Made by a program: the position numbers and the translations under genes
Assembly (NCBI RefSeq): GCF_039555535.1
Contig: NZ_CP154630.1
Span: 4,772,501 to 4,830,894 of the forward strand
Direction of reading: 5' to 3'
Source of the DNA: Stenotrophomonas maltophilia
Lineage (GTDB): Bacteria; Pseudomonadota; Gammaproteobacteria; Xanthomonadales; Xanthomonadaceae
Length of the DNA: 58,394 bases
The notes under the pieces: model-generated
The model's database searches: none
Told to the model about the DNA's origin: nothing
What the model saw: only the letters and a program-made list of their open reading frames with translations
Part shown: piece by piece, positions 51,581-57,998 of the stretch
How the letters are laid out: the number at the start of each line of letters is the position of its first letter
Position numbering within the stretch: the first letter of the stretch is position 1

Positions 51581-52930
51581 TTACTTCCCGATGCAGAAAC
51601 TGGAGAAGATCCGTCCCAACAGGTCATCGGCGCTCATCTGCCCGGTGATCTCGCCCAGCGCGTCATGCGCCAGGCGCAGCTCCTCGGCGGCCAGTTCCAG
51701 GTGTTCGTGCGCCAGCTCGCCATCGGCGCGCTGTGCGTGTTCCTGTGCGCGTTCGATCGCATCCACGTGGCGTGTGCGTGCGGAGAACTCACCGTCCACC
51801 TGCTCCCCTGCCCCGGCAGAGGCAATCGAGCGCAGACGCGCATGCAGGTCCTCCAGGCCGGCACCAGTCGCGGCCGAAACGAACACGCGGTCCGGGTCAT
51901 CCAGCGCCGGCAACGCTTCCAGCAGGTCCGACTTGTTGTGGATGTAGACCCTGTGCGGCACCGCCGCTACGGCATCACCCAGCGCGGCCTCACCGGCCGC
52001 CGGATCGCGCGCGTCCAGGACGATCAACGCCAGATCGGTACGCTCGATCTCCACGTGGGCGCGGCGCATGCCTTCGCGTTCGATGGCGTCACCGCCGTCG
52101 CGCAGGCCGGCGGTGTCGACCAGGGTCAGCTCCAGGCCGTCCAGGCGGATGGTCTCGCGCAGGGTGTCGCGGGTGGTACCGGCGATGTCGGTGACGATGG
52201 CGCGCTCGCTACCGGCCAGCGCGTTGAGCAGTGAACTCTTGCCCGCATTCGGCGGACCGATCAGCACCGCGTGCAGGCCATCGCGGAGGCGACGGCCGCG
52301 TTCGGCATCGCGGCGCAGAATGGCCAGATCGCTGCGCGCCTGTTCCAGCCCACGCCGCACCTGCGCGCCACCGAGGGTATCCAGCGGTTCGTCAGCGAAG
52401 TCGATGGCCGCTTCCACATGGATGCGCAGCAGCACAAGCTGTTCGACCACGGCCTCGATGCGGCGCGAGAACACGCCATCCAGCGAGCGGCGTGCCGCGC
52501 GCGCGGCGCGGTTGTCACCGGCGGCGATCAGGTCGGCGATGGCCTCGGCCTGGGCCAGATCGAGCTTGCCGTTGAGGAAGGCGCGTTCGCTGAACTCGCC
52601 CGGCCGCGCCTGGCGGGCGCCCAGTGCGATGCAGCGCGCGACCAGTTGCTGCAGCAGCACCGGACTACCGTGGCCCTGCAGTTCCACCACTTCCTCGCCG
52701 GTGAAGCTGTTCGGCGCCGGGAACCACAGCACGATGCCATCGTCGATGACCTCGCCGTCGGCATCGCGCAGGCGCGCGTAGTGCGCATGGCGCGGCCGCA
52801 GCGCGGGCGCGCCCAGCGCGTTGGCGATCACCGCGGCGCGCGGGCCGGACAGGCGCAGCAGGCCGACACCGCCGGCGCCCGGCGCACTGGCAATCGCCAC
52901 GATGGTGTCGGTGCGGATCGCGTCGTTCAT
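51581..52930 (-). CDS. mnmE: tRNA uridine-5-carboxymethylaminomethyl modification GTPase MnmE
   Basis: Cytosolic 449-residue GTPase that works with MnmG to modify wobble uridine 34 in several tRNAs. The N-terminal formyl-THF-binding domain begins [22 protein letters not shown]. The G domain has G1 GPPNAGKS at residues 225-232, G2/G3 in [12 protein letters not shown] and VDTAGLRDG, and G4 as HNKSD. The protein ends FCIGK, with the catalytic cysteine C446. It starts 3 bases after the stop codon of the NodB-caspase gene upstream, so it probably depends on that transcript or on a promoter inside it. Confidence 0.96.
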
Positions 52931-52933
52931 GGC

Positions 52934-55606
52934 TCAGAGCTTCTCCAGCTGCGCGCGCGCCTGCGCCGCACCGCTGCCCTGTGGCTGCAGCGCCAGGTAA
53001 GTGGTGTAGGCCTGCTTCGCCTTGGGCTTGTCGCCCGCGTTGAAGTAGGCATCGCCCAGATTCAGATAGGCCACGGCGCGCGAGGGATCGATGTTCAGCG
53101 TGTTCTCCAGCCAGCGTGCGGCTTCAGCGTAGCGCTGCTGGCGGTAATAGACGAAGCCGAGGTTGTTGGCAGCCTGGGCAAAGTCCGGGCGAAGCTTCAG
53201 CGCCTCGGTGAACTGCGCCACCGCCTCGTCGTACTGCTTCTCGCGGTACAGCAGCAGGCCGCGGTCATTGGCCTGCTGCGCGCGCTGGCGATCCGATGCC
53301 GGGCCCGCAGTGGGCACCACCAGCTTGGCTTTGCCGCCCTGCAGGTCAGCCACGGTCACCGGTGCCTGGCTGCCCTTGGCTTCGCTGGCGGCTTCAACCT
53401 TGTTGTTCAGTGCGATCGCGTCGGCGGTCAGCTGGCGCGTATCGGCGTTGAGGAATTCCTGGCTGTCCGGCACCTGGAACACGAACTCGCCGCCCTGGGA
53501 ACCGGGCAGGCTGCCGAACGCCGGCGTCTGGTGCGAAACGGCCGAGACGGCCGGCGCCACGTAGGCGGCCAGTTCGGTACCCGTGATCAGGCCATCGCCG
53601 TTGAGGTCGCCCTTGCCGGCCAGCGCCTGCAGCAGTACCCACGTAAACACCGAATGGCCATTGGGGCCGGCGTCGGCCACCTGCTGGTCGGCACCGCCGG
53701 CGGTCAGCATCTGGCGCGCGCTGCGGCGTGCGTTCTCGCGCAGGAACGACGACGACGAAGGGCCGCCACGGGTCAGGCCCAGGCCGCTGTAGCAGGCATC
53801 CATCACGAACATCACATGCTTGGCCTGCATGCTCTCGGCGATGTTCTGGATGTCGGTCATCGCGATGGCGTCGGTAGCGAATTCCTTCGGGTCCGAATCA
53901 ACCGGGATGATGTAGCCGAGGTCGCGCCCGGAGGCGAGCTGGCGGGTAGCACCATGGCCGGCGAAGAACACGAACACACGGTCGTTCTTTCCGGTGCGGT
54001 CATCGGCCAGGCGGTCGTGGAAGGCGGCCAGGATGTTGTTGCGGGTGGCCTGCTCGTTCTTCAGCACGATCACCTGCGAGGACGGGAAGCCGAACTGTCC
54101 GGTCAATGTGTCGGCCACTGCCTGCGCGTCATGGCTGGCGTACTCCAGCTTCGGCCACTTGGCGTAGTTGTCGATGCCGACCACGATCGCCCACGACTTC
54201 TCGTAGCCGGTGGTGACGGTGGCGGCACCGGTGTCGCCCTTGCGCGCGCGCGCAACGGTGAAGTCGCGGCCGTTCCAGCCTGCGAACTGGTAGCCATCGG
54301 CAATCAGGCGGTCGAGGATCTGCGGCAGCGCCTTCACCGCACGATCGTGGATGTCGTGGAACAGGATGATGCCGCGCTGTTCCTTGTTCACCTGGTCGAG
54401 CACGCGCTGCACGATCGACTCCGGCACCGGATCGGCCCAGTCCATCGAGTCGATGTTCCACATGATCGATTTCAGCCCGGCCTCGTTGAGCAGCTGCAGG
54501 CCTTCGGCGTTGCGCGCGCCATAAGGGAAGCGGAACAGCGGTGCACGCTTGCTGTCGACGTCCTTCAGCAGCGTGTCGGTGTCCAGCACCTGCTGGCGCA
54601 GCGCATCACCGGTGGTGCGCGAGAGCTGGGCGTGGGTCAGGCTGTGGTTGCCCACCGCATAGCCCTCTTCCATCAGGTTGCGACTGATCTTCGCCATCGG
54701 GCCGAGACTGACCTTGCCATCGGCTTCCACCTTGCCCAGGTTGCGGCCCACTTCGAAGAACACGCCCGGCACGTCGTAACGCTTGAGGATGGCCACCACT
54801 TCATCGGTGTAGGCCTTGTGCGGGCCATCGTCGAAGGTCAGCACCACGGTCTTTGCGGGCAGGTCGCGGCCGAAGATCTCGCGGTCGCTGTCCTTCATCG
54901 ACATCGGATACGGCTCGATCACGCCATAATCGCGCAGGATCGCTTCGCGGCTGTAGTCCTTGTGCAGGTGGGCGATGTAGTCCTCCCACTTCTCGCGCTT
55001 GAGCTCGATGGCACGGGTGCGCTCGAAGCGGCTGAAGATGCGGGTCAGTTCCTGGTTGTAGTTGCGTTCGATCTCATCGAGCGCTTCCAGGTCCTCGCCG
55101 ATGCGCTGGTGCAGCTTCACCGCCGGCAGCGAAGAGTCGGTGCCAACGCGCTCATGCAGATCGCGCAGCACTTCGCGGAAAGCCAGGCGGTCGGCGTCGA
55201 ACAGTTCCGGCGCCGACTCGATGTAGTCCAGCACGGTGCCGAGGGTGGCGAAGCGCTGAGGGCTGGAACCACGCAGCAGCGCATCGAACTGTGCGGCGAT
55301 CGCCGTGCGCTGTTCCAGCCCATCGTGGAACAGCTGCTGGCCCACGCGCGTGGAGGTGCCGCGGTCGGCGGCCGACTGCTGTTCCTCGTCAGCCAGCAGC
55401 ACGATGATCCGACGGTACCCGTCGAGCTGCTTCTGCAACGCAGCCAGCAACGGTGCGGCGGTCGGATCGGCGGCCGCCGCCGCCTGCGCGCTGGGCTGGG
55501 TGAGGGTGGTCGCCGGTGCCTTCGCGGCCTTGTCACCGCAGCTGGCAACGACCAGTGTGAGCAGCAGCGAAGGCAGGAACAGGCGGAACGACGACGCACG
55601 CGGCAT
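52934..55606 (-). CDS. Lipoprotein fusing NodB deacetylase, caspase-like protease, EF-hand loop and TPRs
   Basis: Predicted 890-residue exported protein. Residues 1-23 are a signal peptide with lipobox VASC (Cys23). After a 180-residue helical region comes a NodB domain with intact motifs: TFDDGP at 257-262, HSLTH at 321-325, FRFPYGA around 358-364, DSMDW at 386-390 and H417 in ILFHD. A caspase-like (C14) domain follows (about 470-660) with the His-Cys dyad: H551 in FFAGHGA and C605 in MDACYSG. Residues 667-678 (DLNGDGLITGTE) are a perfect EF-hand loop, DxNxDGxIxxxE. The C-terminal 115 residues are three or so TPRs. The functions are inferred from domains; an extracytoplasmic wall or polysaccharide enzyme with regulated proteolysis is one possibility. 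It lies between yidC and mnmE. Confidence 0.9.
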   Translation of the reverse strand: MPRASSFRLFLPSLLLTLVVASCGDKAAKAPATTLTQPSAQAAAAADPTAAPLLAALQKQLDGYRRIIVLLADEEQQSAADRGTSTRVGQQLFHDGLEQRTAIAAQFDALLRGSSPQRFATLGTVLDYIESAPELFDADRLAFREVLRDLHERVGTDSSLPAVKLHQRIGEDLEALDEIERNYNQELTRIFSRFERTRAIELKREKWEDYIAHLHKDYSREAILRDYGVIEPYPMSMKDSDREIFGRDLPAKTVVLTFDDGPHKAYTDEVVAILKRYDVPGVFFEVGRNLGKVEADGKVSLGPMAKISRNLMEEGYAVGNHSLTHAQLSRTTGDALRQQVLDTDTLLKDVDSKRAPLFRFPYGARNAEGLQLLNEAGLKSIMWNIDSMDWADPVPESIVQRVLDQVNKEQRGIILFHDIHDRAVKALPQILDRLIADGYQFAGWNGRDFTVARARKGDTGAATVTTGYEKSWAIVVGIDNYAKWPKLEYASHDAQAVADTLTGQFGFPSSQVIVLKNEQATRNNILAAFHDRLADDRTGKNDRVFVFFAGHGATRQLASGRDLGYIIPVDSDPKEFATDAIAMTDIQNIAESMQAKHVMFVMDACYSGLGLTRGGPSSSSFLRENARRSARQMLTAGGADQQVADAGPNGHSVFTWVLLQALAGKGDLNGDGLITGTELAAYVAPAVSAVSHQTPAFGSLPGSQGGEFVFQVPDSQEFLNADTRQLTADAIALNNKVEAASEAKGSQAPVTVADLQGGKAKLVVPTAGPASDRQRAQQANDRGLLLYREKQYDEAVAQFTEALKLRPDFAQAANNLGFVYYRQQRYAEAARWLENTLNIDPSRAVAYLNLGDAYFNAGDKPKAKQAYTTYLALQPQGSGAAQARAQLEKL

Positions 55607-55658
55607 GGCGGACTCGGAAGTGGGAGGAACGGTGTGCGGGGAATTCTAACGCCGCATG

Positions 55659-55690
55659 CGAAAAGCCCGCCTTGCGGCGGGCTTCTCGCG
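55659..55690 (-). terminator. Rho-independent terminator downstream of yidC
   Basis: On the minus strand, GCGAGAAGCCCGCC and GGCGGGCTTTTCGC form a 14-bp stem with one mismatch and a GCAA-type loop, with TTTT in the 3' arm. It lies about 94 bp after the yidC stop and about 50 bp before the NodB-caspase gene, so that gene should have its own promoter. Confidence 0.8.
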
Positions 55691-55702
55691 TCGATCGGGG
55701 CG

Positions 55703-55759
55703 GTAGAGTCGACTGTTAGTCGACTGCTCGTCCGCCAGTCGACTAACAGTCGACTCTAC
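55703..55759. repeat. GTAG REP pair with GTCGACTGTTAGTCGAC stems
   Basis: GTAGAGTCGACTGTTAGTCG at 55703 and CGACTAACAGTCGACTCTAC ending at 55759 form an inverted pair. Its stem differs from the other SMAG copies in the window. It lies 24 bp downstream of the yidC stop. Confidence 0.85.
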
Positions 55760-55783
55760 AAAGCAGGTGACCTGCGGTCGGGA

Positions 55784-57499
55784 TTACTTCTTCTTGACCG
55801 GGGCCGGGGCGGTGGTGGCCGGGACCGGCTCGCCGCCATGGCGCTTGGTCATCCACCACTGCTGCAGCAGGCCCAAGCCACCGTTCACCACCCAGTACAG
55901 CACCAGGCCGGACGGCATGAAGGCCATCATGACGCCGAACACCAGCGGCATGAACTGCATCATCTTCTGCTGCATCGGGTCCATGCCCGGTGCCGGCGTC
56001 AGCTTCTGGGTGAACCACATCACCGCCACGTTGATGACCGGCAGGATGAAGTACGGGTCGCGTGCGGTCAGGTCCTGGATCCAGCCCAGCCACGGCGCCT
56101 GGCGCAGTTCGACCGACTCGACCAGCACCCAGTACAAAGCGAAGAAGATCGGCATCTGGATGAGGATCGGCAGGCAGCCGCCCATCGGATTGATCTTTTC
56201 CTTCTTGTACAGCTCCATCATCGCGGTCTGGAACTTCTGGCGGTCATCGCCATAGCGTTCCTTCAGCTGCGCGATGCGCGGCTGGAAGCGACGCATCTTG
56301 GCGCCGCTCTTGTACTGCACGGCCGACAGCGGGTACAGCACCAGCTTCAGCAGCACCACCAGGCCGACAATCGCCCAGCCCCAGTTGCCGACCAGCTTGT
56401 GCACCTGGTTCAGCACCCAGAACAGGCCCTGGCCGATCACCGCCATCATCGAGAAGCGGCTGTAGTCGACCACGCGGTCCAGGCCCGGCACGTCTTCCTT
56501 GGCGATCAGGTTGACCAGCTTCGGGCCGACCCACAGGCGGGCTTCGGTACTGGTGGACTGGCCCGGGGCCACGGTGAAGGCCGGGCCACGCGCCTCGATC
56601 AGGTCACGACCGGCCACCTGCGACAGCACGTAGTGCGCGGTCTGGTCCTTCTGCGGGATCCAGGCGGTGAAGAAGTGGTGCTGCAGCATCGCCAGCCAGC
56701 CGCCGGTGATGTTCTGGTTCAGCGTGCCGTCTTCCAGGTAGTCCTTGAACGCACGACGCTGGTACTTCTTGTCGTTGTCGTACCAGGTGGCACCGTTGAA
56801 GCTGAACGAATCCGGGTTGGTCATGCTCCGCGACAGGATGGTCGGGGTGCGGTCCAGGGTGCGGTAGACGTAGCCGTTCCACGGCGCGGCGCCGGCATTG
56901 CTGACTTCGTCCTTGAATCGCACGGCGTACTCGTTGCGCGAGACGGTCAGGGTGCGCTTGATGGTCACGCCGTTGTCGGCGGTCCACACGAACGGGATCT
57001 GCAGCTCGTTCTGGCCCTTGGCCAGCACGAAGTCCTTGGTGTCACCGACCAGCTTGAAGCCATCGGCGCCCGGCACCGGGGTGTTCTTGTCTTCGCTGGC
57101 CCAGCCACTGATCGCGCTGTACGGATGCGCGGGGTCTTCGGTCAGCAGGCGGACCGGCGGGCTGCCCTCGTCCTTGGTCTGCGGGAACTGCAGCAGCTCG
57201 GCGTCCAGCACGCGGCCGCCGTCCAGCACCAGGCGCAGCACGTCGGTGGTGACGGTCACGCGCTGGCTGGCCGGGGTGGCGCTGGCCTGGGCCTGCACGG
57301 CCGCCTGGCCCGGTGCGCCCGGCACCTGGGCGCTGGGGATGGCGCCCGGGGTCGCGCCCGGAACACTCTGTGCGGCGGTCGGGGCCGACGTGGTCGTCGG
57401 TGCCGGGGTCGGGGCAGCCTTTTCACGGCTCCACTCCATCCACAGCAGCACGGCCACCATCAGCCAGGCAAAAATGAGGAATACGCGGGTCTGGTTCAT
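55784..57499 (-). CDS. yidC: Membrane protein insertase YidC
   Basis: Inner-membrane insertase of 571 residues that helps fold and insert membrane proteins, alone or with SecYEG. The first helix is at about residues 5-22 ([17 protein letters not shown]). An Ala/Pro/Gln-rich linker precedes the periplasmic P1 domain (about 70-350). The conserved core has five helices, starting near [25 protein letters not shown], and including [20 protein letters not shown] and [18 protein letters not shown]. The C-terminal KKK tail is typical. It overlaps the rnpA stop codon by one base. No yidD gene lies between rnpA and yidC. Confidence 0.96.
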
Positions 57500-57957
57500 C
57501 AGCGGACAGGCTCGGCGGGGCCGGGACGCGATGCCGGCTCGGTCAAAGAAGGAGTTGCGATGCCATCAGGCGGCGGCATTGTGCCGTCCACGCCCGGCGT
57601 GGGCAATGCACGCAGGCGACGCAGCAGGCGCAGGAAGGCCTGGCGGATCTCGTCGTTGCTGGCGGAACGCGCAGCACTACGGGCCACGACGACAAAGTCG
57701 CCTGGCTGGATGTCGGTACGTGTCTGACGCAGGATGTCGCGCAGGACGCGCTTGATCCGGTTACGCCCGACGGCGTTCGGATCAACCTTGCGGGAAACCG
57801 CCAGACCCAGCCTGGCCGGCCGGTCAGCCGGCAGCCAGTGCAGGGTCATCAGCGGATCGGACACACGGCGGGCGCCGTTGAAGACCGTTGAATATTCGGC
57901 ACGCGTGCGAACCCGCGCAGAGCGAGGGAATCGCTTGCGCGGGTCTGCAGTATTCAC
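57499..57957 (-). CDS. rnpA: Ribonuclease P protein component RnpA
   Basis: Protein subunit of RNase P, which matures the 5' end of tRNAs. The family core is [20 protein letters not shown], then [22 protein letters not shown] and [11 protein letters not shown], with the conserved RNR motif. I set the start at the GTG at 57957 ([11 protein letters not shown]), the usual N-terminus; an ATG at 57993 would add 12 residues that lack family character. The C-terminus is extended by a proline-rich tail ([14 protein letters not shown] and after, about 30 residues) not seen in E. coli RnpA. It ends overlapping the yidC start by one base. Confidence 0.9.
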
Positions 57958-57998
57958 TGTCGAAGGGATTGCGTCTGCCGCGAGGTGCGGCATGGCAA

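Follow-up and report, generated by a model that had tools for sequence, protein, structure and literature searches.

The final 58 kb (58,394 nucleotides; here, the window) of the single 4.83-Mb contig of Stenotrophomonas maltophilia contains an intact open reading frame (ORF), starting with ATG, whose 890-residue product joins a NodB deacetylase, a caspase-like protease with an EF-hand-type loop, and tetratricopeptide repeats (TPRs) behind an export signal. Its closest named matches come from S. maltophilia and allied species. The domains, their intact residues, the export signals, the loop geometry, and the occurrence of the deacetylase module on its own were read directly from sequence or predicted structure. 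Our best explanation, which we hold tentatively and somewhat short of an even chance, is that this is a membrane-tethered, periplasm-facing two-enzyme protein of the Xanthomonas-type metacaspase group. Its helical N-terminal domain and NodB would together form a capped peptidoglycan (N-acetylglucosamine [GlcNAc]) deacetylase, and the C-terminal half would be a caspase-fold protease of the metacaspase/orthocaspase type, with cleavage predicted to follow Arg or Lys. The p10-like part of the protease would hold one calcium ion in its built-in EF-hand-type loop, and the TPR end would bind a partner. Once the protein is exported, calcium outside the cytoplasm would complete the protease, which could then trim itself, the Arg/Lys-bearing linkers, or an envelope partner. 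Such trimming would control the place or time of wall deacetylation; this control of one enzyme by the other is a guess, and its gating element is drawn from the structural match of the cap described below.

How much of this protein was already known? The initial annotation held that no characterized protein combined these parts, but the same architecture is named the Xanthomonas-type metacaspase in the available text of Asplund-Samuelsson et al. 2012 (PMC3501461), and we rejected it as a novel architecture. According to that text, the dyad was intact in all 17 sequences, from Xanthomonas, Xylella, Stenotrophomonas, and two Acidobacteria, and trmE adjoined the gene in the first three genera. 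The gene in the window has the same make-up: PF01522 followed by C14 and TPRs, a Cys-His dyad, and an adjacent trmE (mnmE). The main text of PMC3501461 contains no instance of "EF-hand," "calcium," "periplasm," or "secreted," its sole "lipoprotein" concerns operon enzymes, and the part available does not describe the N-terminal domain. Among the papers listed in searches of an open-licence library, none dealt with the EF-type loop or with export in Xanthomonas-type metacaspases. The deacetylases in PMC3715506 and PMC6337780 were set aside as seemingly other genes, judged by locus tag and name only. What is new here is the placement and conservation of the loop, the export signals, the module formed by the N terminus and NodB, the caspase fold model, and the local character of the gene's linkage.

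Pfam assigned Polysacc_deac_1 to residues 248 to 379 (E = 5.7e-26), Peptidase_C14 to residues 471 to 667 (E = 2.3e-22), and several TPR families inside residues 780 to 888. All five NodB motifs were located (TFDDGP at 257, HSLTH at 321, RFPYG at 359, DSMDW at 386, and LFHDIH at 415), and they hold the metal and catalytic residues that the CE4 family requires; the caspase motifs are AGHG at 549 (H551) and DACYSG at 603 (C605). Conservation was assessed in an alignment of 316 sequences, made up of 75 locus translations and 241 proteins (the query with the best 120 of 2268 and the best 120 of 1843 matches); this alignment is redundant, with 82 sequences left below 80% identity (proteins and seven loci considered). 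Both dyad residues are kept in 316/316, D603 is kept in 315/316, and the NodB residues checked are kept in 314 to 316, two rows having gaps. The initial annotation was therefore right about the 890-residue protein with a lipobox (VASC, ending at C23), the NodB motifs, the dyad, and the TPR end. The domain search that it proposed recovered NodB, Peptidase_C14, and TPR, with EF-hand left below the cut-off; overall, its interpretation is partly supported.

The middle domain had been expected to be a caspase fold, and the predicted structure bore this out (domain model with a predicted template modeling score [pTM] of 0.87). Its nearest structures are metacaspases and MALT1: the plant metacaspases AtMCA4 and AtMCA9 and the paracaspase MALT1 are 19 to 22% identical to the caspase model and have accessory domains and a compartment other than this protein's. 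The mean majority fraction was 0.74 in the caspase part, compared with 0.65 in NodB, 0.57 in the TPRs, 0.40 to 0.43 in residues 61 to 245, and about 0.3 in the linkers and in residues 1 to 60. Across four Xanthomonadaceae pairs, the ratio of nonsynonymous to synonymous substitution rates (dN/dS) was 0.006 to 0.10 in the caspase part and 0 to 0.016 in residues 653 to 690 (a fifth pair, L046, was excluded for mis-mapped codons). The Asp two residues before the catalytic Cys, which we take to be a determinant of basic specificity, is present in 315 of the 316 sequences and suggests that the protease cleaves after Arg or Lys. Available accounts of metacaspases and orthocaspases describe cleavage after these same residues. 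Directly after the Cys lies a low-confidence loop (residues 609 to 628) in which R613 and R628 are each invariant (316/316); it may be a natural self-processing loop. The C14 caspase search matched the same genome at one other place, more weakly (36 bits; G000:C1:2483185-2483820, locus L002), in a 937-codon open frame.

The calcium site was claimed to be a perfect 12-residue EF-hand loop directly after the caspase domain. By the model, that domain reaches about residue 712, and the loop lies inside it. The loop (DLNGDGLITGTE; motif DLNGDG at 667) does have the parts that define an EF hand, a helix, 12 residues with ligands at positions 1, 3, 5, 9, and 12, and a second helix. Both helices appear in the whole-protein and domain models, with a predicted local distance difference test (pLDDT) of 91 to 96 in the latter. 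The ligands are kept throughout the alignment: position 1 is Asp and position 12 is Glu in all 316 sequences, position 3 is Asn (194) or Asp (122), position 5 is Asp (194) or Asn (122), and position 9 is Thr (310) or Ser (6). Positions 6 and 7, whose side chains do not bind the metal, vary. The 120 distant members that form the second protein set have D at position 3 and N at position 5 without exception. When a 130-residue stretch of the protein was shuffled 20000 times, the loop pattern arose at a rate of 0.0012. The loop is real, but no curated EF-hand model passes its cut-off, and for this reason we call it EF-hand-type.

Is the loop shared with other bacterial caspases? We aligned the protein with 14 caspases that had no NodB match listed at their places (the frames of L132 were left out). 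In this alignment, the loop is set in the scaffold G-x-I-T-x-x-x-L-x-x-Y-V of the p10-like half, and the ligands are missing from the equivalent place in 13 of the 14. The nearest three are L120 (46% identity in the caspase part), L121 (44%), and L088, which retain much of the scaffold with the ligands gone. Nine longer caspases (L122 to L130) have a shorter loop, and L133 is without ligands. The nine longer proteins, of about 660 to 890 codons and from other families of the same order, carry their caspase domain, which lacks the loop, at the C terminus and, in most cases, an IVDC-type stretch near the N terminus. L131, a caspase of another kind from the same order with DACYSG, has a full loop, DANGDGNITYLE, at the equivalent place. 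The loop is therefore not unique to this family, and bacterial caspases may have gained or retained calcium-type loops on more than one occasion. As a general bacterial-caspase trait, the loop is unsupported, given the 13 caspases without ligands and a sample of C14 loci without the pattern. In that sample, the pattern was absent from the longest GHG-holding frame, which is not necessarily the caspase's in each locus (29 of 30 loci read; L111 had no such frame).

We infer that the loop binds calcium and that the protease would need it for activity. The compartment proposed here, of the periplasmic type, exchanges ions with the outside, where calcium is generally high, and the loop may therefore always be occupied and structural. 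That it is a clamp, constantly filled with calcium and without a regulatory role, is a serious possibility, if one that we would place a little below even. A clamp would be in keeping with the single loop in a protease core, the very low dN/dS, and the relatives that share the scaffold without the ligands. Against this, related metacaspases are described as calcium-activated in the available part of PMC9622860, a text that returned no match for calcium-site terms.

The initial annotation gave no account of an N-terminal helical domain (residues about 45 to 230), which goes with the NodB part. Residues 24 to 245 match no Pfam family at cut-off and no PDB entry by sequence. The model of the N terminus with NodB superposes on Bd3279 of Bdellovibrio bacteriovorus (PDB 5jp6), a gated peptidoglycan GlcNAc deacetylase whose solved chain of 383 residues ends with the CE4 domain and has no caspase or TPR part, and one wider profile extended into the cap region. 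PgdA of Streptococcus pneumoniae (PDB 2c1g) shares the CE4 domain, with 36% identity in the alignment made by Foldseek, but the match is limited to that domain, and the matched chain has no caspase part. In Geothrix, Massilia, and Undibacterium, standalone capped deacetylases (P0346, P0270, and P0253) align at 44 to 57% identity over 98 to 100% of the query and stop after NodB, with no protease and no TPRs. The unassigned N terminus and NodB are one module, which also exists alone. We infer peptidoglycan to be its substrate.

Each half can exist on its own: the deacetylase module is a separate protein in other bacteria, and there are related caspases for which no NodB match was listed at their location. 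The protein could then be two independent envelope enzymes tethered for co-localization, the protease processing other envelope proteins instead of regulating the deacetylase. We consider this rather unlikely. The order of deacetylase, caspase, and TPRs is constant across distant groups and conservation is highest in the caspase half, which suggests, without proving, a joint function. A further possibility is a protease-gated wall enzyme in one chain, in which the cap blocks the deacetylase and the caspase, completed by calcium only once exported, removes or loosens the cap or frees the deacetylase; this specific arrangement seems unlikely to us.

Where would the protein act? By a simple hydropathy test, a hydrophobic N-terminal segment is present in 120 of the 121 close sequences; of the 120 distant members, 113 are long enough to be tested, and 110 of these have such a segment. 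A lipobox pattern follows the hydrophobic stretch in 119 of the 121 close sequences, the query included, but in only 2 of the 113 distant members, and lipoprotein status as a family-wide trait was rejected. Among 27 Burkholderiaceae frames, 15 have a lipobox pattern upstream of NodB (pattern only, start codons not set), and examples from Burkholderiales have, by eye, an N-terminal membrane helix. The type of anchor varies, and the export signal is nearly universal. These signals favor work outside the cytoplasm, as had been proposed initially.

This location bears on the earlier Xanthomonas work. From 2002 on, studies of the Xanthomonas "caspase" have been cited as support for bacterial apoptosis-like death, as the available text of PMC3501461 relates. 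That text ties the Xanthomonas campestris pv. glycines homologue, a polysaccharide deacetylase-caspase gene, to programmed cell death, cites caspase-deficient mutants that survive, and cites Raju et al. 2007 as work on a Xanthomonas homologue. The protein could accordingly be a stress-activated, death-executing protease whose deacetylase part is incidental. We regard this as improbable, given that export signals in nearly all members tested would separate it from DNA and other targets in the cytoplasm, that the Asp before the Cys predicts a basic specificity at odds with the reported DEVD cleavage, and that the observed band is 55 kDa against about 100 kDa predicted, a difference explained in PMC3501461 by processing. 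Least credible by far is a protease half that is a pseudoenzyme or scaffold: pseudo-orthocaspases exist, according to the available part of PMC6426788, but the dyad is intact in every aligned sequence and in 26 of the 27 Burkholderiaceae loci found via the deacetylase half; in the remaining locus, the frame is broken.

Several observations weigh against our preferred reading of a periplasmic capped deacetylase with a calcium-completed protease. Enzyme activity, calcium binding, and substrate are predictions. The N-terminal profile found no match in the PDB and two profiles of the N terminus with NodB matched the NodB part only, so that homology to the Bd3279 cap is structural in most tests. 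The whole-protein model has a pTM of 0.53, and the mutual placement of its domains is therefore uncertain. EF hands are usually paired, and here the loop is single. The best-scoring Pfam EF-hand model, EF-hand_5, reached 11.7 bits against a cut-off of 25.9, although such a score is a detection aid and lies outside the EF-hand definition. R613 and R628 are shared by three NodB-less caspases (L120, L121, and L088), and Lys and Arg would turn up by chance in any long linkers. Lastly, the Xanthomonas activity reported in the available part of PMC4006831, DEVD cleavage, does not fit an Arg/Lys enzyme.

A phyletic profile of the fusion, which the initial annotation had suggested, gave full-length or contig-edge matches in 20 of 25 genomes of its own genus (source genome included), in 34 of 247 of its family (two copies broken), and, at E = 1e-60, in 8 of 398 of its phylum (one caspase-only match and one broken copy). 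With the profile of the N terminus and NodB, which is independent of the caspase half, Burkholderiaceae loci were found in 27 of 299 genomes. The fused form with dyad and loop is present at 26 of these 27 loci, and the 27th has an in-frame stop. Among broken copies, G521 and L185 (G945) have one in-frame stop each, G670 is in two separate pieces, and G108 has two stops and a second piece.

Both yidC and mnmE were found at 52 of 68 loci; the gene lies between them at 51 and follows mnmE at one (L048, Stenotrophomonas koreensis). Three further loci have mnmE and a contig end near the gene's start. Neither neighbor was found in the fetched flanks (≤5 kb per side) of the other 13, which are labeled outside Xanthomonadaceae and include a TPR-only match (L070). 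In all eight own-genus genomes without the gene, yidC adjoins mnmE at about 100 bases, and where the gene is present its gap to mnmE is up to about 550 bases (L064). A general functional link to mnmE or yidC was rejected because of the missing neighbors outside Xanthomonadaceae, the variable gap, the order at L048, and the clean gene-less loci; the linkage is local.

Some records carry unexpected labels. In one titled Bacillus subtilis SK7B5 (L042), the gene is 88% and yidC and mnmE are 81% identical to those of the window, so that the assembly is most likely mislabeled or contaminated and the DNA of Stenotrophomonas type. The same seems to hold for a protein recorded as coming from the fungus Knufia (P0071; 94%). 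Three metagenome-assembled genomes labeled Betaproteobacteria or Azonexus (L035, L036, and L038) encode proteins 82 to 84% identical to that of the window, with yidC and mnmE absent from the fetched DNA, which suggests transfer between lineages; by eye, L036 lies near leuA- and pstS-like ORFs.

The features are collected in the table. On the minus strand, the order is an ORF at 57499-57993, in what we take to be the usual position of rnpA, then yidC, the gene, and mnmE. An antisense open frame of 1818 codons (52271-57727, plus strand) spans the gene and yidC; it is probably typical of high-GC DNA and not a gene.

Table. Positions in the window of the fused gene, its parts, and its neighbors
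Feature	Position	Strand	Length or evidence
Whole gene: NodB, caspase-like, EF-hand-type loop, and TPR lipoprotein	52934..55606	-	890 aa
Signal peptide with lipobox VASC, ending at C23 (residues 1-23)	55538..55606	-	Lipobox pattern
N-terminal all-helical domain (residues 45-230), one module with NodB	54917..55474	-	Model, profiles
NodB/CE4 deacetylase domain (residues 246-446), motifs intact	54269..54871	-	Pfam, motifs, alignment
Caspase-like (C14) domain (residues 467-712)	53471..54208	-	Pfam, alignment, model
Catalytic His551 codon	53954..53956	-	Motif; 316/316 aligned
Catalytic Cys605 codon	53792..53794	-	Motif; 316/316 aligned
Candidate self-processing loop after catalytic Cys (residues 609-628; R613, R628)	53723..53782	-	Low confidence in model
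EF-hand-type unit: helix 653-665, loop, helix 676-690	53537..53650	-	Two models
12-residue loop DLNGDGLITGTE (residues 667-678)	53573..53608	-	Motif, alignment
TPR domain (residues 771-890)	52937..53296	-	Pfam, model
mnmE (trmE), beginning 3 bases past the gene's stop codon	51581..52930	-	ORF, Pfam
yidC, upstream neighbor, 177 bases off	55784..57499	-	ORF, Pfam

In 2016, a gated deacetylase was called apparently predator-specific; if the reading proposed here is true, such enzymes would extend to ordinary soil and plant bacteria, and bacteria would have a way to couple proteolysis to wall modification. If the family is exported, binds calcium, and is tied to a peptidoglycan deacetylase, the Xanthomonas death literature would need re-reading. 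Were the protease to gate the deacetylase as well, the Xanthomonas "bacterial caspase" would be a periplasmic wall-remodeling switch and not a cytoplasmic executioner.
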